A stretch of 34,861 nucleotides of DNA from a virus. Positions 1,644 through 34,861 of the stretch are shown one piece after another. The DNA lies in the IMG/VR virus record IMGVR_UViG_3300049847_000140, positions 1 through 34,861 of that record. One strand, given 5' to 3'. A model generated the notes under the pieces. The model had not been told where the DNA came from. It saw only the letters and a list, made by a program, of their open reading frames with translations, and did no database searches. Each line of letters begins with the position of its first letter. Position 1 is the stretch's first letter. Both the position numbers and the translations under genes were made by a program.

Positions 1644-1676
1644 TTCTTTTCGTGTATTTGGTTTAATTCGGTGAGA

Positions 1677-1708
1677 TAGGCGAAACTGTTGCGCCTATAA
1701 GTTAGTTA
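1677..1708. repeat. Palindromic repeat, copy 1 (TAGGCGAAAC...GTTGCGCCTA)
   Basis: TAGGCG at 1677-1682 pairs perfectly with CGCCTA at 1692-1697 around a 9-base loop that itself holds AAC-T-GTT. The right half, GTTGCGCCTATAAGTTAGTT, is identical to 33380-33399, where the outer arms are the same but the spacer is different and longer. On the minus strand the unit follows the stop of the 1716-1898 gene within 10 nt. It is read here as a diverged attC-like or terminator-like site; there is no clear U-tract. Confidence 0.7.
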
Positions 1709-1715
1709 TGGGCAA

Positions 1716-1898
1716 TTAATCCCACAGATTCTTACCAGTTATTTCGACATAGACTTCTTTTAATTTTTTCACTTTTTCAGGTAATGCAATCCCAATTTGC
1801 TCAACGTGCATTTGTGGTGGTAATGGCAATTTTAATGCGTGAGCAAGATTGTCAAGTGAATCAATTAAAAGTCCGAGTTTTTCAAATTTATCTTCCAT
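1716..1898 (-). CDS. Unknown small protein, 60 aa
   Basis: Start chosen at ATG 1896-1898 (MEDKFEKLGLLIDSLDNLAH) because it is preceded by an A/T-rich leader (TTTAATTTATTTACA) typical of starts in this phage; a Met seven codons upstream is possible. The protein looks helical with a Pro-rich centre (KLPLPPQMHVEQ) and ends GKNLWD. Its stop lies 8 bases before the palindromic repeat at 1677-1708, the same stop-then-YAAC arrangement seen for other cassette-like genes here. No recognised family. Confidence 0.5.
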   Translation of the reverse strand: MEDKFEKLGLLIDSLDNLAHALKLPLPPQMHVEQIGIALPEKVKKLKEVYVEITGKNLWD

Positions 1899-1919
1899 TG
1901 TAAATAAATTAAACTGCAT

Positions 1920-1981
1920 CTGTTAATCAACTTTAGTTTTTCAATTCCCCCAACCTCGCCAAGCCGAGAACCGTTAGGTGC
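1920..1981. repeat. Half attC-like core downstream of the 1986-2174 gene
   Basis: On the minus strand, 5 nt after the stop of the 1986-2174 gene, comes GCACCTAACGG followed by CTCGGCTTGGCGAG, a small imperfect hairpin. The plus-strand right end reads CCGTTAGGTGC. The matching opposite arm is weak (GCATCTGTTAA near 1916-1926). This looks like a worn or half copy of the cassette-boundary element seen better at 33636-33768. Confidence 0.4.
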
Positions 1982-1985
1982 ATTG

Positions 1986-2174
1986 CTATTCGACATCATC
2001 CGAAAGCAAAAACAATAATATTTGTATTTGTGCGTGGCATTCAGTAGCGTTCTTTTGCCATTCTGCAAGTGTATCAGAAGAAGTGCTACTATCGTATTCA
2101 TTTTCAAACCACGCATTTATTTCACGATATAGTTTTTGCTTTCTTTCAAGCGTTTCTAAAATCTTTTCTTTCAT
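1986..2174 (-). CDS. Unknown small protein, 62 aa, helical
   Basis: Begins MKEKILETLERKQKLYREIN and is rich in Glu, Lys and Gln, so probably a helical hairpin; it ends in an acidic SDDVE. An overlapping minus-strand frame (1865-2116) is less plausible because of its composition. The stop codon lies 5 nt from a GCACCTAAC core. Upstream is the attC-like element at 2199-2334. No family recognised. Confidence 0.5.
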   Translation of the reverse strand: MKEKILETLERKQKLYREINAWFENEYDSSTSSDTLAEWQKNATECHAQIQILLFLLSDDVE

Positions 2175-2198
2175 CTTTCATAAATTGTGAGAAGCACT

Positions 2199-2334
2199 GC
2201 GCCTAACAAGGTATTGCCAAAAGCAGGTCATTCTCGGTTAATTAATCATTTGTACTTCTATTGGGCATTTGTGGTAAATTTGAAACTTTGTGCAAGGGGC
2301 AAACAGACACAAAGCTGCAAACTGTTATAGGCAA
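2199..2334. repeat. attC-like imperfect palindrome
   Basis: GCCTAAC at 2201-2207 faces GTTATAGGC at 2324-2332, the R-box pair expected of an attC-type site (RYYYAAC / GTTRRRY), about 120 nt apart. Inside is a second inverted pair, CTTTGTGC at 2286-2293 and GACACAAAG near 2306-2314. The CTTTGTGC / CACAAAG motif recurs in the elements at 33.7 and 34.0 kb. The stretch 2175-2436 holds no convincing gene. Confidence 0.5.
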
Positions 2335-2436
2335 CCCCATCAAAAGCAAACGCGGGAAACTGACTTAGATTTTTGGATATTCCCCTTTCGGCATATACCT
2401 CGCTCGACCATATCAATCCCCCGCGCTGCCATTGTT

Positions 2437-3177
2437 TTAATTCGCGAACAACTCCTTAATCGGAATCCTGAGATATTCGGTCGGGTTCTTAACCGCCCTG
2501 ATAAAGCACATCACGAACTGCTCCTCATCGGCATCGGTCTGATCTGCGAGGCTCAGTACATAATCTGCCTGACCTGAATACGGGGCAAGCGCGATCCTGA
2601 CATCATCGTTGCCGTATTGACTACCGAATTGATTGTAGCCATTGTTTTCGCGCAAGTATCGAAGACCCCCGAATGTGCCATCACCAACTTTGGTCACAGC
2701 AAATTCAAATCCCTTCATTCGGATTTCCCTGTTCACTTTAAAATCTTTCCAATCCTCACCGTTGATGGTCGTGATGTTGTGGAGTATCACCGATCCATCT
2801 GCTTGCGGCTGCACTTCAACCGCGACATTCTCGCAGATCGCATCGAAGCGGGTGTCACCGTACACGAGTAGGCGGATTTCGGTAGCGCGTTCTTTGTTCG
2901 CGTTGTTATACCATCTATAATTGCATCCTGTGTAATTATGATCGCACTCTTCGACAATAGCAACGTCCTTTCCCGATTCGTCAACCACATACAATTCATC
3001 ATTCCATGTTGATTTACGGATAGTTTTTTTGTCGAACAAAGCCGCTGCTGGCAGAACATTGGTGTCGATTTGCCAGCCGCCAGACAGTTTGCGCCTAAGC
3101 ACTACGCTCAGGAGTGATGATGCTGGGATGATTGCTTCGGTTTCAGCCGGAACGCTGTAGAGAGAAAATTGTTTCAT
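2437..3177 (-). CDS. Unknown phage protein, 246 aa
   Basis: The protein begins MKQFSLYSVPAETEAIIPAS and is rich in beta-prone stretches with no signal peptide or membrane segment. The leader AATTCACCCAAAATAAATAA matches the leader of the 275-aa gene at 635, suggesting both arose from or share the same translation signal. It follows the cytosine methyltransferase gene by 5 nt, so it is probably co-transcribed. I recognise no domain. The size and beta content would be compatible with a virion or host-modifying protein, but that is only a guess. Confidence 0.8.
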   Translation of the reverse strand: MKQFSLYSVPAETEAIIPASSLLSVVLRRKLSGGWQIDTNVLPAAALFDKKTIRKSTWNDELYVVDESGKDVAIVEECDHNYTGCNYRWYNNANKERATEIRLLVYGDTRFDAICENVAVEVQPQADGSVILHNITTINGEDWKDFKVNREIRMKGFEFAVTKVGDGTFGGLRYLRENNGYNQFGSQYGNDDVRIALAPYSGQADYVLSLADQTDADEEQFVMCFIRAVKNPTEYLRIPIKELFAN

Positions 3178-3182
3178 GTTAT

Positions 3183-4157
3183 TTATTTATTTTGGGTGAA
3201 TTTATGTGTATTCTCGATTGCTTTAAATATCTCATAAGCTACTTGCGGAACGATAGCGTTTCCAAATGCTTTTATGCTTTCATTTCTCCATTTTGGAAAG
3301 GTGATTCCGTCCAATTCTCTGGAAACCCCATCATCTCCGCCACAAATCGGGGATTGAGTTGGGAAGTTTGACCAGTAATTTGAAACGCTCTTTTCTGCAA
3401 TCCATCCTGATTCCTCTTGCCAGTATTCTTCGCGGGACTGTCGTCTGCTGTCGGAGTTGGTAATAGTATCTGCGCTATTAAATCCTCTAAGTTCCCCTTC
3501 CATCTGTTGTTTGAGCAATTCCCTCCCGCAGCTCTGCTTCTTGGTTTCGGAAGCATATTGATCAATCTCTTTTCTAAAAATCCGTTCTTTGCTTCCTGAG
3601 CCAAATTCCCTGAACTTCCCGAAACAGATTTGCTCGTCATGTTCTCCATTTGCGCGTCCATTGCACCTGGTGTTTTTAGCAATGAACCAAACCCGATCCC
3701 TTCGGTGAGGTGCGCCAACGGCACAAGCTGGAAGTATAAATGGGATGACTTCGTACCCTTCATTTTCCAAATCAGTCTGCACCTCATCGAAGACCATTCC
3801 CCCATTCCAACTAACGATGCCGCGAACATTTTCACCCACAACGTATGTCGGGGCAATCTCGCGAATTGCTCTAAGCATTTCCGGCCAGAGGTGTCGGTCA
3901 TCTGCTTTTCCAAGTCGCTTACCGGCAGTTGAGTAGGGTTGGCAAGGGAATCCTCCTGTAACAATATCAATTCTGTTTGCATACCTTTTAAAATCTGTCT
4001 TCGTAATATCTCCGAATCCTTCTGCTTCAGGAAAGTGATGCCGTAATACTTTCTGTCCAAATTCATTCCATTCGCACCAAGCTAAAGTTTCCCAACCCAT
4101 CCATCTCGCGGCCAAAGAGAATCCTCCAATTCCTTCAAATAGTCCGAGATGTTTCAT
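3183..4157 (-). CDS. dcm: DNA (cytosine-5) methyltransferase
   Basis: 324 aa. The classical C5-methyltransferase motifs are present in order: motif I LGLFEGIGGFSLA (residues 4-16, AdoMet binding), motif IV GGFPCQPYS (68-76, catalytic Cys72), motif VI ENVRG (109-113), motif VIII RRDRVW (152-157), and motif X FGNAIVPQVAYEIF near the C-terminus. The target-recognition region lies between about 160 and 290. The enzyme should methylate the C5 of cytosine in a short sequence I cannot predict, and would protect phage DNA from host restriction. No cognate endonuclease is adjacent, so it looks like an orphan phage methyltransferase. It sits in an early-type minus-strand operon behind two small genes. 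Confidence 0.95.
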   Translation of the reverse strand: MKHLGLFEGIGGFSLAARWMGWETLAWCEWNEFGQKVLRHHFPEAEGFGDITKTDFKRYANRIDIVTGGFPCQPYSTAGKRLGKADDRHLWPEMLRAIREIAPTYVVGENVRGIVSWNGGMVFDEVQTDLENEGYEVIPFILPACAVGAPHRRDRVWFIAKNTRCNGRANGEHDEQICFGKFREFGSGSKERIFRKEIDQYASETKKQSCGRELLKQQMEGELRGFNSADTITNSDSRRQSREEYWQEESGWIAEKSVSNYWSNFPTQSPICGGDDGVSRELDGITFPKWRNESIKAFGNAIVPQVAYEIFKAIENTHKFTQNK

Positions 4158-4187
4158 GTTATTTATGGGTGTTTATTTACTTTGAAA

Positions 4188-4451
4188 TTAATTTGATAGC
4201 GTTATAGAAAATCCGATCGGTAATGGACAATAGTCGCTTTCTGAATTGGTAAATCCACCTTCAGATCCTCCTAACAAGTGCTGAACAAACGGTTGTTTGG
4301 CTATTTCATCACTATTTTGTACCAAAGAGATTATCACAATGTCTTTCGGGCGAATCTCACTTATTTGTTTCTCAGTTAAATACTGATCTAGCCCAACCCA
4401 TATCGCTAAATATGGATATTCTTTTTGTGGAGTTTTTATCTCTGTTTTCAT
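4188..4451 (-). CDS. Unknown small protein, 87 aa
   Basis: Begins MKTEIKTPQKEYPYLAIWVG; a soluble alpha/beta protein with the segment IRPKDIVIISLVQ and a Gly-rich stretch (LLGGSEGG). It is preceded by an A-rich leader (GTAAATAAACACCGAA) and follows the 44-aa RPRK protein gene by 24 nt, with the cytosine methyltransferase 30 nt downstream. No family recognised. Confidence 0.65.
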   Translation of the reverse strand: MKTEIKTPQKEYPYLAIWVGLDQYLTEKQISEIRPKDIVIISLVQNSDEIAKQPFVQHLLGGSEGGFTNSESDYCPLPIGFSITLSN

Positions 4452-4475
4452 TTCGGTGTTTATTTACTTTGGTTA

Positions 4476-4610
4476 TTACTCATCGCCCTCGTTTTTGATT
4501 AGTCGTTTGATCTTCTTGTCAAGCTGCATCCAACGCCATACCGGCACTCGATACGACAGCACCTTAGTCGGTTCTTTTCTCGGCCTTCCTACTTTTCTTT
4601 TCGCTTTCAT
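4476..4610 (-). CDS. Small basic GRPRK protein, 44 aa
   Basis: ATG at 4608-4610, stop at 4476-4478. The protein starts MKAKRKVGRPRKEPTKVLSY and continues with RVPVWRWMQLDKKIKRLI, ending in an acidic GDE. The GRPRKxPTKVxxxRVP pattern is typical of small ribbon-helix-helix-like or AT-hook-like DNA-binding proteins that phages often carry. It is too short for common gene callers. A TATATTTG box ends 4 nt before its ATG, so it appears to be the first, possibly leaderless, gene of the operon that includes the cytosine methyltransferase. It may be that operon's regulator, but this is inference. Confidence 0.65.
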   Translation of the reverse strand: MKAKRKVGRPRKEPTKVLSYRVPVWRWMQLDKKIKRLIKNEGDE

Positions 4611-4614
4611 TTCA

Positions 4615-4622
4615 CAAATATA
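4615..4622 (-). promoter_or_regulatory. Bacteroidota-type -7 promoter element (TATATTTG)
   Basis: The minus strand reads TATATTTG, a full match to TAnnTTTG, followed by TGAA and then ATG of the 44-aa gene. Transcription from this element would start at or within a few bases of the ATG, giving a leaderless mRNA. I see no good TTTG at -33. Confidence 0.55.
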
Positions 4623-4638
4623 GTTTACATAAATTAAG

Positions 4639-4995
4639 TCAGAACTCATGACCTATCAAATAGTTGTCAACAGTTTCAATGAACATGTCCAAACTATTCA
4701 CAACCGCTACTTGATAACCTTGTTTCGTCAGTTTCGCAATGACTTCATCCTGGTTCGTTGTAGTCTTTCCATTGCCGAATTTCATTTCAACGAACAATCC
4801 ATGATAGGCCGAATTTCCGAAGCAAATAAATAGATCGGGCATTCCCGAAAGTAGTCCCTCCGCCTTCATCCGGGCCGCGCTTTGAACGGTTCGTTTTCCC
4901 TCGTTCGGAAACGCAGCGATCAAGATGTAAGGGTATCTGTACTTAAACCACTTCACGCATGACTGCTGCAATTTGGATTCGTTAAACTGCTTCAT
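4639..4995 (-). CDS. VRR-NUC domain nuclease
   Basis: 118 aa, the size of a stand-alone VRR-NUC (PD-(D/E)XK fold) phage nuclease. Near residue 52 it has the motif GMPDLFICFG (catalytic Asp in PD), then LFVEMKFGNGK at about 67-77 (catalytic E-x-K), followed by TNQDEVIAKLTKQGYQVAVV, the usual NQ...L...G motif of the family. Such enzymes act on branched or replicating DNA and are found in phage replication modules. The gene overlaps the stop of the upstream helicase-loader-position gene by 4 nt (ATGA-type coupling) and is the last gene of the replication operon. Confidence 0.9.
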   Translation of the reverse strand: MKQFNESKLQQSCVKWFKYRYPYILIAAFPNEGKRTVQSAARMKAEGLLSGMPDLFICFGNSAYHGLFVEMKFGNGKTTTNQDEVIAKLTKQGYQVAVVNSLDMFIETVDNYLIGHEF

Positions 4996-5672
4996 TCAAT
5001 CTTGTTTAGTTCTTCTTTCAATCGCTGCACCCGGAACTCATCGAAGTGATATAATACCTCGTCATAAATCTTCGCTCCGGTGTGATTGCTATTGGGTAAT
5101 CCATCCCATTCGCGCATCACCATCTTATCAAACTCATTGACGTGTGATGGTTTCGGTTCGGGTTTATCGTTCACCTGAGGCAATTTATCCACTACCATTT
5201 TCAGCGCATCTCGCATCACATCGTTGTTGAATACATCATAGATGTTGTTACGATCCGCTTGCTCACGATTCAATTCGCGTGAAGTTTCGGTCCTGATTAG
5301 GTCGTATTGATCGAGCCATTCACAAAGGACCAACACATCCAGTCGATTAAAATTTTTACCAAACTTTCCAGTCAATGCCATATCGAAGCAGATCCGGAAC
5401 TCATCAATTTTCAAATAGTAATATTTTTTTCTAATCAATTCCGCTGCGGTCCTGACCATGAATGTTGTCATGGGTTGGGTGAGCATAATCGAGTTGTGCA
5501 GGTTGTTGATGAGTATCTCAATCGCAGCAATGACTCGGTCCTCTCCAATTTCTTTCGAAAGTGCAGCCAAGTTTTTTTTAGATTTGTCCTCCAATATTTC
5601 CGCCAAAGAGGAGTTCTTTTTTTGAGTTGATGTAGTCGTTAAGGTCTGACTTTGTTTGTTCTCTTGATCCAT
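4992..5672 (-). CDS. Phage replication-module protein, possible helicase loader
   Basis: 226 aa. The N-terminus is Gln/Thr/Ser-rich (to about residue 25), followed by a helical core with YYYLKIDEFRICFDMALTGK and NRLDVLVLCEWLDQYDLIR (about 85-130). This core resembles a protein commonly found between the replication initiator and nuclease genes in Bacteroidota phages. No Walker A motif is present, so any helicase-loading role is position-based. The ATG at 5672 has a strong A-rich leader (GAAAAAAATAAATCAA), yet the upstream gene ends only at 5578, so the two coding regions overlap by 95 nt in different frames. Confidence 0.8.
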   Translation of the reverse strand: MDQENKQSQTLTTTSTQKKNSSLAEILEDKSKKNLAALSKEIGEDRVIAAIEILINNLHNSIMLTQPMTTFMVRTAAELIRKKYYYLKIDEFRICFDMALTGKFGKNFNRLDVLVLCEWLDQYDLIRTETSRELNREQADRNNIYDVFNNDVMRDALKMVVDKLPQVNDKPEPKPSHVNEFDKMVMREWDGLPNSNHTGAKIYDEVLYHFDEFRVQRLKEELNKIE

Positions 5673-6309
5673 TTGATTTATTTTTTTCGTTAGCAGTATT
5701 CATCCAGTTCCGGGCCGCAGCATTCCAATCCTTCATTTTGTTTTTTCCCACCATCCATCCTTTCGATTCGTAAAAGTTCCAAAACTTTTTGGATTCAGAC
5801 GCGACCGTTTCAATCTTCCATATTCCACCTGCGACCGAGTTACGTTCCTTCATGTAGTCTTCAACTTCTTTGAGTTGCGGTTGTAAAAATTTTCCACGCG
5901 GTTTTTTTTCATTTTTATCTACATCTCTATTTTCATTTATATCTTCATTTTCATCTTCAGAACGTATTACGTTCGTATTACGTTCGTATGTATTATTTTC
6001 TTTGCTTTTATCCCATCGTTTTCTTACTGATTCCGCGGCTTTGAGACTTTTTTCTTTACGCAAAAGAATTTCATTTTCCAGACGCGGATTAAAACTGCCG
6101 GACTCATCATGCTCGAATTTATTGAATACTTGTATGCCGTTCGTAATACCATCGCATTGCGTTCGTAATACGTTCGTATCAATACGCCCGCCATGCTGAT
6201 GTTGCGCGCATAGCATCCTGATGTAAAGACCAACCTGTTCATTCGTCATAAACATAGTTCCGGTCAAAAAATCGGAGGCGTAAAATAGAAATGCCGGGTC
6301 TTTAGCCAT
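5578..6309 (-). CDS. Replication initiation-like protein (DUF1376-type N-terminus)
   Basis: 243 aa from the ATG at 6307-6309. It starts MAKDPAFLFYASDFLTGTMF and MTNEQVGLYIRMLCAQHQHG, the pattern of phage replication proteins with a DUF1376 or replisome-organiser winged helix that binds the origin. The middle (about residues 95-140) is a low-complexity Asn/Asp/Glu linker, followed by a C-terminal domain with KFWNFYESKGWMVGKNKMKDW, as in DnaD- or O-like proteins. A TTG start nine codons upstream would lie in the structured leader and is rejected. The gene sits behind an attenuator-like RNA element and overlaps the next gene by 95 nt. Confidence 0.8.
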   Translation of the reverse strand: MAKDPAFLFYASDFLTGTMFMTNEQVGLYIRMLCAQHQHGGRIDTNVLRTQCDGITNGIQVFNKFEHDESGSFNPRLENEILLRKEKSLKAAESVRKRWDKSKENNTYERNTNVIRSEDENEDINENRDVDKNEKKPRGKFLQPQLKEVEDYMKERNSVAGGIWKIETVASESKKFWNFYESKGWMVGKNKMKDWNAAARNWMNTANEKNKSNGSREQTKSDLNDYINSKKELLFGGNIGGQI

Positions 6310-6411
6310 AATTAAAAAAAATAACCTCCGAAACAAAGGCTTACCCGCATCCCGAATGGGATTATGGCAATGAATCGGAGGTGTATTAGAATTTTTTTCA
6401 TGCGAGTAAGC
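6310..6411 (-). promoter_or_regulatory. Structured 5' leader: attenuator or pseudoknot with sequestered SD
   Basis: On the minus-strand transcript, two inverted repeats interleave. Element B (GCTTACTCGCAT, 6411-6400) can pair with B' (ATGCGGGTAAGC, 6350-6339) through 12 positions with one G-U. Element A (ACCTCCGA, 6382-6375) pairs perfectly with A' (TCGGAGGT, 6331-6324). A small ATCCC-ATTC-GGGAT hairpin lies between. A' is followed by UAUUUUUUUUAAUU and then the AUG of the replication gene. The A-A' stem with its U-tract looks like a terminator, B-B' could be an antiterminator, and both together would form a pseudoknot. A' contains GGAGGU, a full Shine-Dalgarno sequence 14 nt before AUG, masked by ACCUCC. 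Confidence 0.65.
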
Positions 6412-6424
6412 GTTGCAATATTAA

Positions 6425-6745
6425 TCAAAAAAGCGTGATCTGCAAATTTTCTTGCTCAACCGGCCTAAACTTCCAAAGATGATTTAGAACGCCATAGTCA
6501 CCATTACGTCTTTCGGTTAGCTTAATGAGTAGTCCTTCCTTTTCAAGTACCGTAATCGCTCTACGAACGCTCGTAACAGGGCAAGAATTATTGAAAGCAG
6601 CCTGACAAACCTCGAACGGTGTGAATGACCGCTTCGGATTGTGTCGGAAGAACTCCATGACGATTTGGGTCTGAGTCATTGCTTTCTGCTTCTGATTGTT
6701 CAGATCAGTTCCGGCAATATTGATTGTGTTGTAGAATGATTCCAT
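6425..6745 (-). CDS. Winged-helix DNA-binding protein
   Basis: 106 aa. The middle reads MTQTQIVMEFFRHNPKRSFT, then PFEVCQAAFNNSCPVTSVRRAITVLEKEG split by a helix-turn-helix, with a basic wing (TERRNGDYG). This is a pattern seen in small phage proteins next to replication genes in Bacteroidota phages. An internal Met at residue 23 would give a shorter protein that starts exactly at the winged-helix domain. It is 3 nt downstream of the DNA methyltransferase gene and directly upstream of the structured leader at 6310-6411. It probably binds DNA as a transcription or replication regulator; the target is unknown. Confidence 0.75.
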   Translation of the reverse strand: MESFYNTINIAGTDLNNQKQKAMTQTQIVMEFFRHNPKRSFTPFEVCQAAFNNSCPVTSVRRAITVLEKEGLLIKLTERRNGDYGVLNHLWKFRPVEQENLQITLF

Positions 6746-6748
6746 GAT

Positions 6749-7573
6749 TTAAAAAAGTGTTGGATTCTGTTCGGTTAACTTACTTTTAGCAAATCCTAAA
6801 TGTTTGATTTCATCCCTCATCAAAACTTCCTGTGTAATCCATGAGGTGGCCTTCGTAAAAAAATCTTTTTTGATCTCAAATCCATACGCCTTGCGATTGG
6901 TTCTGATAGCCGCTACCAAAGTAGATCCGCTTCCGGCACATGGATCTATTACTACATCACCTTCATCAGTAAATATTTCAATCAATATTTTAAGCAGTTC
7001 AACAGGTTTCTGAGTTGGGTGTATTTTTTCAGATTCATTATCTCGCGGCCAATCTATGCAGTTAAATATCATATTTCCGTTGTTTCTGAATTTTGGCAAG
7101 CGATCGCGATAGAGGACCAATCCATATTCACAATTACCCACGATCTTCATATTAGCTTTTAAAACCTGAGCGGAAAAATTCTTTCTAAATACCAAATTGA
7201 TATAATTATTCAAGCCATATCTTTTCGCGAGTTCAATTAAATACATCTGCTGATCAAACGCACAGAAAATAATCATACAAGGAGCATCGCTTTTTTGTCG
7301 CGCTACTCCTTCGATCGGTTGTTTCTTTGTTTCTGATTTAAGCATAGTTGAACAAAAGTGCATAAATTCTGCGGGCCTAAAATCTTCATCGGTATCGAAG
7401 AAACTTTTGCCGGCCAAATCACTTTCACCATTATTATTATCTCCATCCTTATACCATGCGGGATTAGACGCATAAGCATTATTACCCAAGTTGTAAGGAA
7501 TATCAGCAATGATTAACTGCGCCTTAGGAATTGCGTATCCTTTGTAGTTTTGAAAATGATCTCTATATAGCAT
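6749..7573 (-). CDS. DNA N4-cytosine/N6-adenine methyltransferase (beta-class order)
   Basis: 274 aa from the ATG at 7571-7573; a TTG seven codons upstream would overlap the previous gene. The catalytic motif is DIPY (residues 24-27) in ADIPYNLGNNAYASNP, a variant of (D/N/S)PP(Y/W) with Ile in place of the first Pro. The C-terminal part has HPTQKPVELLKILIEIFTD and then DPCAGSGSTLVAA, the AdoMet-binding motif I. Motif IV before motif I is the beta-class arrangement. It lies in the recombination-replication operon and probably protects phage DNA from restriction; no endonuclease is adjacent. Confidence 0.9.
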   Translation of the reverse strand: MLYRDHFQNYKGYAIPKAQLIIADIPYNLGNNAYASNPAWYKDGDNNNGESDLAGKSFFDTDEDFRPAEFMHFCSTMLKSETKKQPIEGVARQKSDAPCMIIFCAFDQQMYLIELAKRYGLNNYINLVFRKNFSAQVLKANMKIVGNCEYGLVLYRDRLPKFRNNGNMIFNCIDWPRDNESEKIHPTQKPVELLKILIEIFTDEGDVVIDPCAGSGSTLVAAIRTNRKAYGFEIKKDFFTKATSWITQEVLMRDEIKHLGFAKSKLTEQNPTLF

Positions 7574-7583
7574 AATTATGTTT

Positions 7584-7694
7584 TTAGCATCCAATAAAAA
7601 TAGTCCAAACCAAAGCGATCCCAGCCGCCATGAGTAGTGCCGCTATTAAGTGCGGGAACTTGGGAAGTTCGTTGTTGTAAATTGCTTTGTTCAT
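7584..7694 (-). CDS. Tiny single-pass membrane protein, 36 aa
   Basis: ATG at 7692-7694, TAA at 7584-7586. The peptide starts MNKAIYNNELPKFPH and continues with one hydrophobic helix (LIAALLMAAGIALVWTIFIG). Its ATG overlaps the TGA of the upstream Cys-rich gene (ATGA), indicating coupled translation, and it ends 10 nt before the methyltransferase ATG. It is too short for most gene callers. Function unknown. Confidence 0.6.
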   Translation of the reverse strand: MNKAIYNNELPKFPHLIAALLMAAGIALVWTIFIGC

Positions 7695-8017
7695 TTTTCG
7701 TGTTTTTGACGGTAAATATTACGACATGTACATGCTCCGATTCCAATCTGATTATGGTCGCATGGAGTTTCACAGATTCCATTATGCCATTCGAGCGCAA
7801 CTCGGTCGGTATGAGCGAATACCCATTGCACTTCGCCAACATTTGTGTATTCGGTAATCTCTCTAATACGCCTTATCACGATCTTGTAACGTGCAGATTT
7901 GCTTATGTATTCACTTTCACTTAGCTTCGTTTTATAAGCGAAATAATATTGCAACTCACCTCGCTCGTGCATAAGTTCGTTGAGTTCATCATCGGGATGG
8001 ATTGATTTTTTACTCAT
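7691..8017 (-). CDS. Unknown small protein with C-terminal Cys cluster, 108 aa
   Basis: Begins MSKKSIHPDDELNELMHERG, then a helical middle with many charged residues. The C-terminus holds CETPCDHNQIGIGACTCRN, four Cys and a His that could bind one zinc ion. It overlaps the exonuclease gene upstream by 4 nt and the 36-aa gene downstream by 4 nt. It is probably part of the recombination-replication operon. No family recognised. Confidence 0.7.
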   Translation of the reverse strand: MSKKSIHPDDELNELMHERGELQYYFAYKTKLSESEYISKSARYKIVIRRIREITEYTNVGEVQWVFAHTDRVALEWHNGICETPCDHNQIGIGACTCRNIYRQKHEK

Positions 8018-8655
8018 GGCCGGTTAAATTTAAGTTTAAGAATCTCTACATACGAATCGCGTTTCTCGATGATCTTTGGAATGATCGCATCAAGTCGCTC
8101 CGCCCAGGTATAATCGCGCAATACCTCAACTAAGATAGTGCGCTGATCGTGCGGAATGGGATAGGTCAATCCGTTATCGCTCATGAACTGCGTTTCGACA
8201 AGATATGCCGCGACCACCCAACGATTGTAGCCGGTTAAGTACATGTACATTTGCGCCTGATGGTGCTGCTCGTTTGAAACTCCATCGTATAAATAGCTCA
8301 ACCACTTATCGAGTGAAGTCGGGCATTTAAAATCAACTCCATATTTCTCGACCGGATTCTCTGCATCAGTCGAACCACCGCAATACCCGTTATGAATGAA
8401 CCTACCCGTTTCAAGACCGGCATCGTAATACTTCACAAAATCGAGATAAGCGAAATGCTCAGCCATCTTACCATGCTCCATCTGCCAAGTAGTTACCTCG
8501 TCATAGTGATGAAAAAATAGTTCAGTCGCGAGTTGTCGTGCGAGTGCATCTTGTCCGGCTTCTGCTGATTTTTTCGGAAACAGACAAGCGCACCGGCTGC
8601 CTGTAATCAATCCGAAACGCTCGGACGGAAATGTATCTATTGCAAAATTCGTCAT
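8014..8655 (-). CDS. YqaJ-like viral recombinase/exonuclease
   Basis: 213 aa. It carries the features of the lambda-exonuclease/YqaJ family: RFGLITGSRCACLF near the N-terminus, TTWQMEHGKMAEHFAYLDF (about 55-73, conserved Glu and His), GGSTDAE followed by YGVDFKCPTS (the acidic residue and the Asp-x-Lys catalytic pair near 105-110), then HHQAQMYMYLTG with the conserved Gln. Such enzymes digest one strand of double-stranded DNA ends for single-strand annealing. The gene overlaps its neighbours by 4 nt on both sides, and the upstream partner is the expected companion protein of this recombination module. Confidence 0.9.
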   Translation of the reverse strand: MTNFAIDTFPSERFGLITGSRCACLFPKKSAEAGQDALARQLATELFFHHYDEVTTWQMEHGKMAEHFAYLDFVKYYDAGLETGRFIHNGYCGGSTDAENPVEKYGVDFKCPTSLDKWLSYLYDGVSNEQHHQAQMYMYLTGYNRWVVAAYLVETQFMSDNGLTYPIPHDQRTILVEVLRDYTWAERLDAIIPKIIEKRDSYVEILKLKFNRP

Positions 8656-15513: not shown

Positions 15514-17388
15514 ATGGTAGTTCGGACGTATAACAATATCATTGATCGACTCGCTGCATTTGCGGAAGGTCACTATATTTTAAAGAGATTTACACATGGG
15601 CAGATTGATGAAGTAGATACGGGCAAGGATAATATATACCCCTGGATGCACGCAGTACCAACAAGCACTTCACTCGATGCTGGAGTAGAGGCGTATTCGT
15701 TCGATATATCATTTGCCGACATGCCGCGAGATAAGACAGATGCCCGCGACTATCAGAAGGAATGTATATCCGATATGATGCAGATCGCGCAAGATTTGGT
15801 CAATGAAATCAAGAACGGCAATGTGCTATTCGGTTCAGATGTAGAATTAAGTTATCCGATTCAAATCACACCATTCATCCGCGAGTTCAGTAACACTTTG
15901 TCCGGTGTAACATTGTCAGTTACGATCATAGTTCCAAATGCTTGGGATGCTTGCGATATACCTGCATCATATGCGGTCGGTGGAAGTGGTAGCGGTGGAA
16001 GTAGTGGAAGTGGTGGATCGGAGTTACTGCTTCAAGTCAATGCGGTTGATAACGCGATTCAATCACTGCTTAATCTATCAGAAGGCAACAACATCACAAT
16101 AGTTGACGAAGGTGATGGAACCGTAACGATTAGCGCAACAGGTAGTGCGGGTGGTGGAGTCGAATCCGTAACCGGACTGAATACCGACAATACCGATCCG
16201 CTAAATCCTGTTGTTAGAGTAAGTGTTGACGGCACAACCATAACCGGATCAGGCACTCCGGCATCACCACTTGTCGCGACCGCAACAGGACTGCCATCGG
16301 GCGGAACTAAGTTTATGTATCTGCGTAAACATACAAATACAAACTACGATGTTGAATGGTCATTCCTGAGCATATCCGAAATAAACGGACTCAGTACAGT
16401 TGGTACGAATCTCGCCACGCTAACCGATCCGAGCGCAATTAGATTTCTGCGGATCAATGCGGATAACTCTGTGACGGCATTGGACGCGGCTTCGTTCTTG
16501 ACTGCAATCGGTGGTCAACCGAGCGGAACGTATTTAGTTGCTGCAAATAACCTGAGCGATTTAGGAAGTGCCGCAACTGCCCGAACCAATCTCGGACTTG
16601 GGTCGCTCGCAACTCAAAGCGGTACTTTCTCAGGTACTTCGAGCGGAACAAACACAGGTGACGAAACGACTTCAACCATTAAAACGAAGTTAGGCATCAC
16701 AACATTGTCAGGATCGAACACAGGCGATCAGGATTTATCTACACTCATGGTTAAGTCGAATAACCTGAGCGATGTTGTGAGTGCTTCAACTGCTCGAACC
16801 AATTTAGGCTTGGGAACACTTGCGACACAGAGCGGAACATTCAGTGGTACGTCTTCCGGTACAAATACAGGCGATCAAGATTTATCCGGATTGATGGTGA
16901 AGTCATCGAATCTATCCGATGTAGCCAATGTCATAACGTCACGAACCAATTTAGGTTTAATTGATATATTTCTCGCGAATGATTTCACTCAGTCCTCATC
17001 GACATTAACTGATCTAACCGGATTCACTATACCTGTTGTGGCATCGGGTAAGTATAAAGCGAAGATGGTTCTTGCAATTACGGGTTCAACAGGCGGGTCA
17101 CGTGTTGGATTCACATTTCCGGCTTCATGTGTAGTGAAGGTCGCTTTAGTTGGTTCGACATCTGTCACAACTACACAGGTGATGCAATGGCTCACTCCAG
17201 CTACCGGAACAGAAATAGCAATATCGCTTGGATCAGCATCGATAGCAACTGCTGCATTTTGGATGATCTCAATTGAGAACGGAGCGAATGCTGGCAACGT
17301 ACAAGTTCAAGTCAAGTCTGTTACCAATACCCAGAACAACGTATTTACATCGGGTTTAACTACTCTTGAATATCGTAAACTAAACTAA
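15514..17388 (+). CDS. Neck/tail protein fused to a repeat-containing fibre
   Basis: 624 aa. The first ~150 residues (MVVRTYNNIIDRLAAFAEGH, then YPWMHAVPTS, YSFDISFADM) resemble a stand-alone virion protein of Bacteroidota phages that sits at the head-tail joint or tail end. A Gly/Ser stretch (GGSGSGGSSGSGGS, about 154-167) links it to a fibre: a NITIVDEGDGTVTISATG beta domain, then three copies of NNLSDxxSAxTARTNLGLG...SGTFSGTSSGTNTGD (from residues 345, 416 and 463), then a C-terminal beta-rich tip. It probably acts as an adsorption fibre. It overlaps the next ATG by one base. Confidence 0.75.
   Translation: MVVRTYNNIIDRLAAFAEGHYILKRFTHGQIDEVDTGKDNIYPWMHAVPTSTSLDAGVEAYSFDISFADMPRDKTDARDYQKECISDMMQIAQDLVNEIKNGNVLFGSDVELSYPIQITPFIREFSNTLSGVTLSVTIIVPNAWDACDIPASYAVGGSGSGGSSGSGGSELLLQVNAVDNAIQSLLNLSEGNNITIVDEGDGTVTISATGSAGGGVESVTGLNTDNTDPLNPVVRVSVDGTTITGSGTPASPLVATATGLPSGGTKFMYLRKHTNTNYDVEWSFLSISEINGLSTVGTNLATLTDPSAIRFLRINADNSVTALDAASFLTAIGGQPSGTYLVAANNLSDLGSAATARTNLGLGSLATQSGTFSGTSSGTNTGDETTSTIKTKLGITTLSGSNTGDQDLSTLMVKSNNLSDVVSASTARTNLGLGTLATQSGTFSGTSSGTNTGDQDLSGLMVKSSNLSDVANVITSRTNLGLIDIFLANDFTQSSSTLTDLTGFTIPVVASGKYKAKMVLAITGSTGGSRVGFTFPASCVVKVALVGSTSVTTTQVMQWLTPATGTEIAISLGSASIATAAFWMISIENGANAGNVQVQVKSVTNTQNNVFTSGLTTLEYRKLN
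16546..16944 (+). repeat. Fibre repeats coding NNLSD...TNLGLG units
   Basis: Three in-frame diverged repeats start at 16546, 16759 and 16906. The first unit is longer because it carries an extra TTSTIKTKLGITTLSGSNTG segment; the third is cut short after RTNLGL. Copy number of such repeats can vary by recombination and would change fibre length. Confidence 0.75.
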
Positions 17389-32324: not shown

Positions 32325-32891
32325 ATGCCCGACAAAAAACCAATCATGGAACGGATAGCAGATTCAAAGTTTGCGGAGTTCGTTCGCGAAAAAGTTAAAC
32401 CTGTTGCGGGTGATGTGCTTCAGATCGCGGGTGAATTAACCGGCATCGGAGCAATTGAAAAAGTAGGTGAATTTCTCAACAAGAACAAGGAAGACAATGA
32501 GCAGGTCAAAGCACTTGCGGTTGAATTTGAGAAGTACAAGATGCAATGGCAACTCGAAGTCGAGTCCATGATAATGCAGAACGGACTTGAAGAACTCAGG
32601 CTTGAAGTACAGGATCGAGATTCTGCAAGATCACGCGAAGTCGAGTTCATGAAGACAACAGGAGGTAAGCGCGACTGGATTATGGGCGTTGTGGTTATAT
32701 CCGGCCTGATTATGATGATATTCGTCCTGATTTCGCTCACATTCATTCAAGTTCCGGAAGGCAACAAAGAACTTGCTTATATGTCATTCGGTTCGGTGCT
32801 GACTATTGGGGCATCGATATTCGCGTACTATGTTGGCTCGAGTAAGTCGAGTCGCGGCAAAGACGAAACGATTTCAAGAATGGTCAAATGA
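32325..32891 (+). CDS. Holin-like protein with coiled-coil domain
   Basis: 188 aa. The middle (about 60-115) is a coiled coil with ELRLEVQDRDSARSREVEFM, then RDWIMGVVVISGLIMMIFVL and MSFGSVLTIGASIFAYYVGS as two TM helices and a SSKSSRGKDE tail. The RDSARxREVE - GxxDW - YYFGSSKGS arrangement is common in holins of Bacteroidota phages. It overlaps the endolysin start by 4 nt, supporting its role in lysis. Confidence 0.8.
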   Translation: MPDKKPIMERIADSKFAEFVREKVKPVAGDVLQIAGELTGIGAIEKVGEFLNKNKEDNEQVKALAVEFEKYKMQWQLEVESMIMQNGLEELRLEVQDRDSARSREVEFMKTTGGKRDWIMGVVVISGLIMMIFVLISLTFIQVPEGNKELAYMSFGSVLTIGASIFAYYVGSSKSSRGKDETISRMVK

Positions 32892-33328
32892 ACCGGATCA
32901 AACTAACTGAGAATTTCTATTTGGATGAATTTATCTGCCCAGAAATATATTCTGCTCGCGGTGCTAAGGCTATTTCGTTAATCGACATCAGAATAGTCTA
33001 TGCGGCTCAATTCATCCGAGATGTTATTGGCAAATCTATTCACGTAAATTCGTGGTGGAATGGCGGCAATTTGCACGAAAGAGGACTGCGCGAATGGAAT
33101 ACATCGACCGGGGCGAGATGGTCGCAGCATAAGTATGGCAGAGCGTTTGACTTTCATGTTGACGGCATGACTCCGGCACAGGTTCATGCGGTTATCACGC
33201 AGAACTCGCAGACCTTAATCAAGAACGAATGGATCACAACTCTCGAAGATACTCGCGACACTCCGACATGGACACATTGCGATTGTAGATTCACCGGACT
33301 CGATCATATTCAGGTTGTGCGGGCGTGA
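32888..33328 (+). CDS. Endolysin, peptidase M15 family
   Basis: 146 aa. The zinc-binding motif SQHKYGRAFDFH (residues 79-90) provides His81 and Asp88; TPTWTHCDCR near 126-134 provides the second His and catalytic environment, with Glu120 nearby. This is the layout of VanX- or DD-carboxypeptidase-like phage endolysins that cut peptidoglycan cross-links. It lacks a signal peptide, so it relies on the holin. Its end faces the accessory minus-strand genes; the only feature between is the palindromic repeat at 33358-33400. Confidence 0.9.
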   Translation: MNRIKLTENFYLDEFICPEIYSARGAKAISLIDIRIVYAAQFIRDVIGKSIHVNSWWNGGNLHERGLREWNTSTGARWSQHKYGRAFDFHVDGMTPAQVHAVITQNSQTLIKNEWITTLEDTRDTPTWTHCDCRFTGLDHIQVVRA

Positions 33329-33357: not shown

Positions 33358-33400
33358 TAGGCGAAACGATTGGGGGCGGGTTGCGCCTATAAGTTAGTTA
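33358..33400. repeat. Palindromic repeat, copy 2
   Basis: TAGGCGAAAC (33358-33367) faces GTTGCGCCTA (33380-33389), with TAGGCG/CGCCTA as a perfect stem and a 12-base spacer rich in G. The right half through TTAGTT matches copy 1 at 1688-1707 exactly. It lies between the convergent endolysin gene and the 69-aa gene, whose stop is 7 bases away. Confidence 0.7.
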
Positions 33401-33407
33401 GCAGCAA

Positions 33408-33617
33408 TTAAACAACCGCTTCTACCAACTTGACAAAATCAGCAAATGATATTTCCTTTTTTGGAAGTTCATTGCCTTCTTCATCATATTCTGACTTAAA
33501 TAATTCACCATCTATAATTTGACAGCAAATATCATTTCCGTGTTTCCAATCCCAATAATTCAGGAATTTCCTTCCATCTGGTTCTTCGTGTATTACAAGT
33601 TCTAATCCTATTTTCAT
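33408..33617 (-). CDS. Unknown cassette-like protein, 69 aa
   Basis: Start placed at ATG 33615-33617 (MKIGLELVIHEEPDGRKFLN), because the longer frame up to 33770 would read through the perfect palindrome at 33646-33754, which is not protein-like. The protein is acidic with YWDWKHGNDICCQIIDGELF and ends FADFVKLVEAVV. Its stop is 7 nt from the palindromic repeat, in the same orientation as the other cassette-like genes. Function unknown. Confidence 0.6.
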   Translation of the reverse strand: MKIGLELVIHEEPDGRKFLNYWDWKHGNDICCQIIDGELFKSEYDEEGNELPKKEISFADFVKLVEAVV

Positions 33618-33635
33618 TCGACAAAAATTAACTGC

Positions 33636-33768
33636 TGCCAACAATATATTGCCAATAGTGGGGCAGACGTGCCACAATTGAGCATTGGTACCACTATTAA
33701 ACTTTGTGCAATGGTTGGGTAGTAGTGCCTTGAAATCCCCACTATTGGCAATATTAGACGTTATACGC
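33636..33768. repeat. attC-like palindrome with perfect 18-bp arms
   Basis: ATATTGCCAATAGTGGGG (33646-33663) and its exact reverse complement (33737-33754) enclose about 73 nt. TGCCAAC (33636-33642) lies outside the left arm and GTTATACGC (33760-33768) outside the right arm, as R-type cores would in an attC hairpin. Inside is CTTTGTGC, shared with other copies. The 33773 gene ends 5 nt from this element. Confidence 0.65.
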
Positions 33769-33772
33769 AACC

Positions 33773-34057
33773 TTAAAGACGCAACTCGAAACGATAATCA
33801 TCTAAATCTTTTCGACTTATACTAATCATTTCATTGCTGAATTTTTCGCTTCGTCCAATAATCTCTTTTCTGCTTATCTTTTCAATCTTATAGTAGCCTT
33901 CTGAATAATCAGACCATCCAAAATCTTTTCGATAAGTGTGTGCAATTCCAACTGCTATAACTTGACCAACCGAAAGGCCGCGTATAACACTGGTTTTGTG
34001 CAAGCGTGGCTTTGGTGCTACACTTGAAGTTTCTGCTTCTAATTTACTTTTGTACAT
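33773..34057 (-). CDS. Unknown cassette-like protein, up to 94 aa
   Basis: The ATG at 34055-34057 (MYKSKLEAETSSVAPKPRLH) lies within the loop of the attC-like element at 33979-34117, so the first ~25 residues may be palindrome-derived; no better ATG exists downstream before the conserved-looking part (VGIAHTYRKDFGWSDYSEGY). The start remains uncertain. The stop is 5 nt from the core GTTATACGC. Function unknown. Confidence 0.5.
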   Translation of the reverse strand: MYKSKLEAETSSVAPKPRLHKTSVIRGLSVGQVIAVGIAHTYRKDFGWSDYSEGYYKIEKISRKEIIGRSEKFSNEMISISRKDLDDYRFELRL

Positions 34058-34117
34058 ATATTTAAGTTTTCGTTTTCAAATTCCACGCCTGACACAAAGC
34101 CGCGAAATGGTTAGCGG
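33979..34117. repeat. attC-like imperfect palindrome
   Basis: Arm GGTTTTGTGCAAGCGTGG (33992-34009) pairs imperfectly with CCACGCCTGACACAAAGCC (34083-34101). Outside are CGTATAAC (33981-33988) and GTTAGCGG (34110-34117). The stop of the 34118 gene directly abuts the second core. The loop of about 73 nt includes the ATG at 34057. Confidence 0.55.
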
Positions 34118-34483
34118 TCATTGCCCCGTAATCCTATTGAGATATTCGGTAGATTTTCCGATAGCGAAATCAAAGTCGCCGCCAAAGTCAGTTAAGTCCA
34201 CCCCATCTTTAGCAATGTAAACGGCTATTTGTTGTGGCCAGAACTGAATTGAAATTTCGTATCTATCGGAAAATCTTAATAGGGCTTTCAGTTTCAATAG
34301 GTCAATATCGTTAGGCAACGAACCGCTAACGCAGGGTTTTGCGCTATTATTATTTGCTAACTTTATCGCTTCGTCAATGGCATAGTCCAAATCTCTTTTG
34401 CCTGTTTCTGAAATATCTCCCGTTACTCTCATTAATTGAGTAGCCACTTTAATGTTTTGTAGGTGTTTAATTAGTTGTTCCAT
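34118..34483 (-). CDS. Unknown cassette-like protein, 121 aa, with an internal core-like motif
   Basis: Start at ATG 34481-34483 (MEQLIKHLQNIKVATQLMRV). Helical N-terminal part to about residue 44, then NNNSAKPCVSGSLPNDID, encoded by a stretch that holds GTTAGGC and CCGCTAACGC, the same cores found at cassette ends. A second part with beta character follows (YEISIQFWPQQIAVYIAKDG, LTDFGGDFDFAIGK). The protein may be a fusion created when two cassettes joined. The stop abuts the attC-like core at 34110-34117. Confidence 0.6.
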   Translation of the reverse strand: MEQLIKHLQNIKVATQLMRVTGDISETGKRDLDYAIDEAIKLANNNSAKPCVSGSLPNDIDLLKLKALLRFSDRYEISIQFWPQQIAVYIAKDGVDLTDFGGDFDFAIGKSTEYLNRITGQ

Positions 34484-34503
34484 TTTATATTTGAGTGTAA
34501 TTA

Positions 34504-34533
34504 GCACCCTACCGAACTACTCCGATAGGGTGC
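34504..34533 (-). terminator. Perfect hairpin after the junction gene
   Basis: GCACCCTA and TAGGGTGC (8 bp, loop of 14) lie between the stop of the 275-aa gene (34542) and the next gene. On the minus strand the stop is followed by CCTAACGC, so the element also has a cassette-core look. U-tract is absent (TAATTA), which weakens a terminator call. Confidence 0.5.
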
Positions 34534-34541
34534 GTTAGGTT

Positions 34542-34861
34542 TCAGAAATATTGCTTCACCGCGAATCCAAGCGGAACGACTTTCTCTGTCATCACCGACA
34601 CATGATCGCCATCGTCTTCTGTTGTGGTTAGCATCGCCCTGAGTTTAACCTGATCCGCAGCCATTACAGCATAGTTCTCGCGGTCAGTCAAGTCATTTGT
34701 GATCGTGAAGGACTGCTCAACAGGAAACTGTGCGGATGCGGCAAATGCGGGGTCTACCGGCCACACTTCCCAACGGCATCTGATTGGGTCAATTTCTACT
34801 CCCTTACGGAACAATTTACCCGCGACATCGAGTTTATCACCGTTTGGAGTCGTGGTGATTT
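34542..34861 (-). CDS. Unknown phage protein, 3' part (same gene as 1-635)
   Basis: This is the C-terminal part of the gene that begins at base 635. The frame is continuous through the 127-bp overlap and ends in TGA at 34542-34544. A Met codon at 34814 is internal; the true start is at 635. The stop is followed on the minus strand by a CCTAACGC core and an 8-bp perfect hairpin. No recognised domain. Confidence 0.85.
   Translation of the reverse strand, partial: ITTTPNGDKLDVAGKLFRKGVEIDPIRCRWEVWPVDPAFAASAQFPVEQSFTITNDLTDRENYAVMAADQVKLRAMLTTTEDDGDHVSVMTEKVVPLGFAVKQYF
34735..34861. repeat. Terminal overlap, right copy (circular contig)
   Basis: Exact second copy of bases 1-127. Joining the copies restores an uninterrupted minus-strand gene (start at 635, stop at 34542), which supports true circularity of the assembly. 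Confidence 0.95.

Follow-up and report, generated by a model that had tools for sequence, protein, structure and literature searches.

Two short arrays of integron-type sites with reversed cassette polarity in a tailed phage genome

The window analyzed here, which is the whole of IMG/VR virus record IMGVR_UViG_3300049847_000140 (34,861 bases), holds two short arrays of integron-type (attC) sites, with all full sites on the minus strand. They are probably cassette arrays of the kind called clusters of attC sites lacking integrases (CALIN), in a phage-specific version of that system. This reading is based on the site family, the arrays and their polarity, the crossover position obtained by comparison, exchange between related phages, and the lack of a recombinase in the window. 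The genome is that of a member of Caudoviricetes with terminase, portal, tape-measure and methyltransferase genes, and is circular or terminally redundant, since a 127-nt direct terminal repeat is present at its ends. The nearest terminases were those of phages of Flavobacterium, Bacteroides, Polaribacter and Cellulophaga, which makes a host in Bacteroidota likely. In agreement with the initial annotation of the sequence, which had stated that no integron-type tyrosine recombinase is encoded, a search of the record gave no match to PF00589.

Site family and sites of the window

By BLAST of the right array region against phages, a single relative was obtained, a 122-nt match with 71% identity to the best window site (AB) in 17 Flavobacterium phage records (Muminvirus). 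From this match the search pattern GGCTTTGTG-N75-105-TGCACAAARCC was derived; viral contigs contained 53 stretches that fit it, and genome contigs 80. About half of the latter were chance matches in unrelated phyla, without TAAC and GTT cores, and were set aside; the remainder were nearly all from Bacteroidota and had TAAC and GTT cores at both ends. A covariance model (R1) was built from 35 aligned sites, excluding the window, and the window was searched with it with all filters off. On the minus strand, R1 scored 98.6 bits for site AB (33981-34117, E = 5.7e-21), 44.5 bits for site BC (33635-33767, E = 1.8e-8), 34.8 bits for site L1 (2200-2331, E = 3e-6) and 17.9 bits for L2 (about 1920-1980, E = 0.025), and on the plus strand AB was detected again at 28.9 bits. 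By comparison, the best match in an unrelated stretch of the window, taken as chance, reached 7.0 bits. Judged by these scores, the window sites are members of the R1 family, with BC, L1 and L2 as diverged or partial ones.

Site AB consists of the arms GGCTTTGTGTCAGGCGTGG and CCACGCTTGCACAAAACC with a putative crossover core TAAC at 34110-34113 and a far core GTTA at 33985-33988. In BC, the corresponding cores are TAAC at 33760-33763 and GTT at 33640-33642, and the predicted fold has a perfect stem of 18-19 bp formed by a different palindrome, AATATTGCCAATAGTGGGG. L1 (core TTGCCTATAAC, far core GTTAGGCGC) and L2, of which only the left half (CACCTAACGGTTCTCGGCTTGGCGAGG...) is present and resembles a Muminvirus site when compared by eye, belong to a second array of the same kind at 1677-2334, outside the region 33358-34544 to which the initial annotation had been confined. 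The minus-strand order described there (gene with stop codon, TAAC core, palindrome) was present as described, and the palindrome length of 130-140 nt was correct. Two of the three proposed cores, CCGCTAAC and GCGTATAAC, proved to be those of AB and BC, respectively, but CTGCTAAC (33397-33404) marks the 3′ border of the array and belongs to no full site; likewise, in AB the outer stem is the CTTTGTG/CACAAAG motif, whereas BC has CACAAAG only in its loop.

An inverted-repeat hairpin conserved by structure, as expected of attC, was indicated by covariation of the stem in the 35 aligned sites: 38 cells were changed on both sides versus 10 expected, the covariation score was 0.231 versus 0.078 after shuffling (reached by 0 of 500 shuffles), and double changes occurred at 5 stem pairs. 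No consistent single extrahelical base was seen in the alignment of R1 sites. At the core ends of AB, BC and L1, GTT was present in 6 of 6 and was followed by A in 5 of 6. The spacing of AB and BC by about 215 nt under R1, together with the lack of a PF00589 match, agrees with the definition of a CALIN as at least two attC sites within 4 kb and no integrase in the element. The family, the covarying hairpin and the crossover core are common to the window sites and to chromosomal arrays of Bacteroidota, in favor of their integron type. In plasmid DNA, nothing matched the window region, and the consensus site had one partial match.

Cassette polarity, crossover and exchange between phages

The two strands of a site score very differently with R1, so the sites have a direction. 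When the dominant open reading frame (ORF) between neighboring sites was counted after removal of near-duplicate contigs, genes on the R1 strand versus the opposite strand numbered 47:0 in phage arrays and 9:100 in chromosomal arrays (Fisher p = 4e-31). Among pairs of similar sites (partly non-independent, as closely related contigs are included), those with the right flank (R1-right) kept and the left flank (R1-left) changed versus the reverse numbered 15:0 in phages and 76:8 in chromosomes, which argues for crossover at the R1-left core in phage and chromosomal arrays alike. In classical integrons, crossover at R′ takes place between G and TT. The core that abuts the stop codon in the phage arrays is this crossover end (the classical R′, between G and TT on the other strand), which assigns each phage attC to the gene that follows it. 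The phage cassette is accordingly inverted, consisting of attC and then the gene, whose stop codon lies at the next core or shortly ahead of it, whereas chromosomal cassettes are canonical (gene, stop codon, R″ and then R′ with the crossover at its far side). By both the site-pair count and the gene count, phages did not show the canonical arrangement of a gene followed by its own attC with crossover at the far side of that attC. Canonical orientation was rejected for the window as well, where the stop codon abuts the crossover end. The description "integron-cassette-like" in the initial annotation thus holds for integron-type sites in a phage without an integrase, but the order of stop codon, core and palindrome, which had been taken as typical of integron cassettes, is a signature of the inversion.

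Exchange was examined in Muminvirus, a group of isolated Flavobacterium phages infecting LMO6/LMO9 (Nilsson et al. 2020, PMC7077304), whose DNA methyltransferases were reported to be variable, one of them being tied to plating efficiency; integrons, cassettes and attC are not mentioned in that report. Each Muminvirus genome has one array of 9-14 R1 sites, which belong to the attC family of the window at 117 bits. In MN812221 (L253 of our set, 1649-8239, with one of its attC sites at 6192-6325) and the Muminvirus records L255-L261, the cassette array includes several DNA methyltransferases. Comparison of the arrays of six genomes showed that a single cassette (gp008) distinguishes mumin6-2 from mumin6-3, with only the 7 bp TAACGTT shared at the junction, and that for 63 of 83 block ends inside the arrays a TAAC core was no more than 20 nt away in both genomes compared. 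At the array ends, 5 of 5 that were read showed the flank TAAC followed by TACAATATTACATG, with different last genes. Two methyltransferase cassettes were also common to Muminvirus and a 169-kb viral contig, the shared blocks extending from core to core. These differences suggest that Muminvirus cassettes, several of them DNA methyltransferases, have been gained, lost or relocated by recombination, mostly at the core between TAA and C. The initial annotation had regarded a gene order conserved in all related phages as evidence against exchange; in Muminvirus, the order is not conserved.

In the three frames, an ATG inside attC opening an ORF of at least 60 codons past the site occurred 30, 21 and 1 times, respectively, among 110 phage sites, and 7, 0 and 0 times among 88 chromosomal sites by the same criterion. 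About half of the phage attCs thus appear to hold the start codon of the next gene and an in-frame leader, as does the attC in front of window gene B. The leaders that recur in the two phage frames read ..NPHLHKTDVS.. and ..AKPVLPAV.., and in the GenBank annotation the start of the Muminvirus methyltransferase gp013 lies inside its attC. Translation of such leaders, for example the Muminvirus peptide QKSLFENEMLNIVQKPTLHK, is predicted from the reading frames.

Among 50 viral records, a PF00589 gene was absent from 45 and a terminase match was present in 15. Some of the IMG/VR contigs with R1 sites are fragments, and the claim for phages therefore rests most firmly on Muminvirus and the window.

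Chromosomal arrays and surroundings of the window sites

R1 sites were found in 27 of 27 array-bearing genomes tested (at least 124 sites in the richest) and, at E ≤ 1e-6, in 61 of 148 sampled Bacteroidota genomes; the SSA2 tyrosine recombinase described below was found (E ≤ 1e-40) in 51 of the 148. Both were present in 38 genomes, that is, R1 sites occurred in 38 of 51 genomes with the recombinase versus 23 of 97 without it (p = 2.5e-9). As read from coordinates, the recombinase adjoined the array in 16 genomes, on the same side and in the same orientation in 15 of these. It is mostly 350-400 aa long, with its C-terminus facing the array. In CP058707.1 (Bacteroidota SSA2), the R1 sites among the matches listed were on one strand from about 3.48 to 3.98 Mb (about 500 kb), and four sampled 20-kb pieces held roughly 15-30 sites each, so this array probably comprises several hundred sites. 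A tyrosine recombinase gene lies at one end of it (L242:7784-8899, minus strand; about 3985786-3986898 of CP058707), and another linked gene was found at L244:5559-6692 (minus strand).

The SSA2 recombinase scored 211 bits with NF040815 (XerA) and 178 bits with TIGR02249, for which the cut-off is 265. Its assignment to IntI on the basis of the TIGR02249 match was rejected, since the match was in two pieces, XerA scored higher, and 24 residues stand where IntI4 (2A3V) has 66, that is, the IntI-specific segment of about 42 residues is missing. As the published definition of IntI requires this segment (PMC9668308), the recombinase beside the Bacteroidota arrays is, from its sequence, XerA-like and not IntI. 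An integrase with the IntI-specific domain, as in a complete integron, was thus found neither in the phage nor, for the linked recombinase, in the chromosomes; "integron" in the strict sense is not established, because the accompanying bacterial recombinase is without that domain, and the XerA-like enzyme may be the integrase of an integron-like system of non-IntI type.

The genes of the window arrays are all on the minus strand. Gene A (34118-34483) is a phage gene with an N-terminal extension, the junction reading NNNSAKPCVSG-SLPNDIDLLKLK; its homologues in phages without cassettes start later, with MSLPNGI or MKKIDLLKL. An attC remnant comprising a right arm and far core (GCGCAAAACCCTGCGTTAGCGG, 34323-34344, minus strand), which resembles GCACAAAACCGATGTTAGCCGC of the family, lies inside the frame of gene A and appears to form this extension. 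Cassette gene B (33773-34057) starts within attC AB, which encodes its leader MYKSKLEAETSSVAPKPRLHKTSVIR of the frame-0 type of phage attC leaders, and is followed by cassette gene C (33408-33617, 69 aa). In the left array, an ORF of 62 aa (1986-2174) follows L1 and lies between the sites, and a 67-aa gene (1716-1919) starts with MQFNLFTMED in an attC-derived stretch, comparable to MQKSLFENE of Muminvirus. No significant Pfam match was obtained for genes A, B and C or the two left cassette genes, and no viral relatives of genes B and C and the left cassette genes were found in viral contigs, in a search run without a positive control.

Both arrays finish in one sequence, TAAC followed by TAACTTATAGGCGCAAC...GTTTCGCCTA. 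In the right array, this 3′ border occupies 33358-33402 on the minus strand (TAAC at 33397-33400) and is 91% identical to 1688-1719; in the left array, it lies at 1677-1712 on the minus strand (TAACTTATAGGCGCAACAGTTTCGCCTA). The repeated border stands where a landing site would, and the two copies are candidate attI-like landing sites. Directly after TAAC at the 5′ border of the right array, a hairpin (GCACCCTATCGG...CGGTAGGGTGC, 34504-34533, minus strand) is present, which could be either a terminator or a remnant site.

The whole array segment is absent from the three closest relatives covering the region (L007, L009 and L010 of our set). The stretch that these relatives lack comprises about 4.7 kb of minus-strand genes, from 33328 to 3183 across the junction of the circle, and in the same three relatives the methyltransferase gene cluster is only a few hundred bases from the homologue of 32888-33328. 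Elsewhere in the window, an 11-nt repeat (about CGTATTACGTT) recurs in clusters, both direct and inverted, at 5952-5994 and 6131-6184, possibly a regulatory or protein-binding region, and a 116-nt direct repeat (73% identity) at 16546-16661 and 16759-16874 sits within a gene for 624 aa (15514-17388) that matches tail-protein families.

Mechanism, alternative explanations and implications

In the mechanism we propose, the mobile unit would be an attC with its downstream gene, bounded by TAAC cores. Crossover would fall between TAA and C (between G and TTA on the other strand), so that the upstream gene would keep its stop codon and the downstream gene its start codon, often inside attC with an N-terminal leader. 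New units would be taken up where a phage transcription unit ends (3′), at a landing site of which the window has two copies, the attC recombining either with this site or with another attC, and an incoming unit would bring its own start codon and leader and take its transcription from the phage. The enzyme would most likely be supplied in trans by the host, as the XerA-like tyrosine recombinase found next to the chromosomal arrays of R1 sites, and would probably act on a folded single strand, by analogy with IntI. What we infer here is that catalysis occurs in trans on a single-stranded substrate, that the leader is translated, that the repeated border serves for landing, and that the partly degraded sites of the window are still active.

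Several observations weigh against the proposed cassette system. Genes B and C had no homologue in 396 Bacteroidota genomes, in a search run without a positive control; the data searched showed no movement of the window's own cassettes, and viral contigs, when searched, contained no empty copy of the landing site. Of the 6 core ends, 1 alone (the far core of L1) keeps the strict R′ consensus GTTRRRY, and the XerA-like recombinase is tied to the arrays by position and co-occurrence only. Most of the Muminvirus block ends away from cores are due to a single rearrangement that relocated a block in snork9-1, and at least one snork9-1 junction is at the other (GTTA) core; crossover at the R1-left core is therefore a strong rule and not an absolute one. 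In L258 (6020-6180 and 8380-8520), a junction is broken at the far GTTA core with attC left on the upstream gene, as if the other core were sometimes usable. Finally, the window arrays may be decaying, given the weakness of BC and L1 and the presence of only half a site at L2. That these arrays are inactive fossils of such a system would be compatible with the origin proposed here and is a distinct but lesser possibility, in line with the half-site L2, the fusion of gene A to an attC remnant, the ends of both arrays without a full attC and the low scores of BC and L1, but at odds with the intact site AB at 98.6 bits and the open reading frames of B and C.

If the phage had simply acquired ordinary cassettes from a host chromosomal integron through recombination of the IntI type, as for the phage CALINs already known, the site family shared with chromosomal arrays would be accounted for, and some published phage CALINs recombine with IntI1 (Qi et al. 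2023, PMC9892861). This explanation is nevertheless unlikely, since the opposite polarity (47:0 versus 9:100) means that the phage cassettes are no sample of the chromosomal pool, the linked chromosomal recombinase is without the IntI-specific segment, and the lack of homologues of genes B and C mentioned above counts against it too. Phages recombine readily, and the conserved arms common to the sites, into which several block ends reach by 13-20 nt, could serve as homologous repeats for gene swapping by homologous or phage Red-type recombination. Breaks anywhere in the approximately 130 nt would then be expected, but the attC body stays R1-right in the phage pairs (15:0) and the mumin6-2/mumin6-3 junction shares TAACGTT only, which leaves this explanation quite improbable. 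Least plausible, to a degree that we would almost discard it, is that the hairpins, which fold well and follow stop codons, have no other role between phage genes than termination, RNA processing or regulation: gene content and order shift at the cores, an ORF often begins inside the hairpin, and the bacterial arrays of the family are in a single orientation with a linked recombinase. The window sites also matched nothing in Rfam and hence are not a catalogued RNA family, and as a complete explanation this one is refuted by the cassette differences of Muminvirus.

Sedentary chromosomal integrons or superintegrons, such as those with Vibrio VCR sites, are large single-orientation arrays of small genes with hairpin sites and a linked tyrosine recombinase. 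The Bacteroidota arrays are like them in these features and in crossover at TAAC/GTTA cores, but their recombinase is without the segment of about 42 residues of VchIntIA/IntI4 2A3V (TIGR02249 178, cut-off 265), and the gene polarity of the phage cassettes is reversed. Window and Muminvirus share the attC family and the reversed polarity but differ in the 9-14 sites of Muminvirus and its other landing site (TACAATATTACATG). Few integrons were reported in Bacteroidetes in the IntegronFinder 2.0 survey (PMC9024848), whereas in the same phylum R1 sites were present here in 61 of 148 genomes. CALINs are already known in virulent phages, including Polaribacter phage P12002L, and their use in trans was proposed, and shown for IntI1 with 5 of 6 sites, by Qi et al. 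2023 (PMC9892861). Like the present arrays, they combine sites of the attC type with small genes, often for DNA methyltransferases, and no integrase is present in the phage genomes, but the site sequence is different, as R1 matches nothing in P12002L. Flavobacterium phages are not mentioned in that paper, and reversed polarity, attC-encoded leaders and cassette differences between sister phages are not described in the passages cited here. In the literature searched, which covered neither preprints nor most subscription journals, no report was found of reversed-polarity phage cassettes, attC leaders, Muminvirus arrays or XerA-linked Bacteroidota arrays. Phage CALINs are thus known, and the reversed, leader-encoding type appears to be a new variant.

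On balance, we lean toward a wider picture in which Bacteroidota have a large, mostly unrecognized integron-like system with a XerA-like recombinase devoid of the IntI domain, and phages keep a separate pool of reverse polarity that inserts at the 3′ end of a transcription unit, attC giving the start codon and leader, so that virulent phages would swap anti-restriction methyltransferases by means of the host recombinase. If this is true, the phage cassette pool would be a system that has a polarity and a landing site of its own and carries its translation start with it, and defense-evasion genes would be exchanged among phages without a phage-encoded recombinase. Both Muminvirus and its Flavobacterium hosts are in culture, so the exchange of cassettes and its consequences for host range can be tested directly. 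Integron-like arrays across Bacteroidota would also be implied, together with a recombinase outside the accepted definition of IntI.
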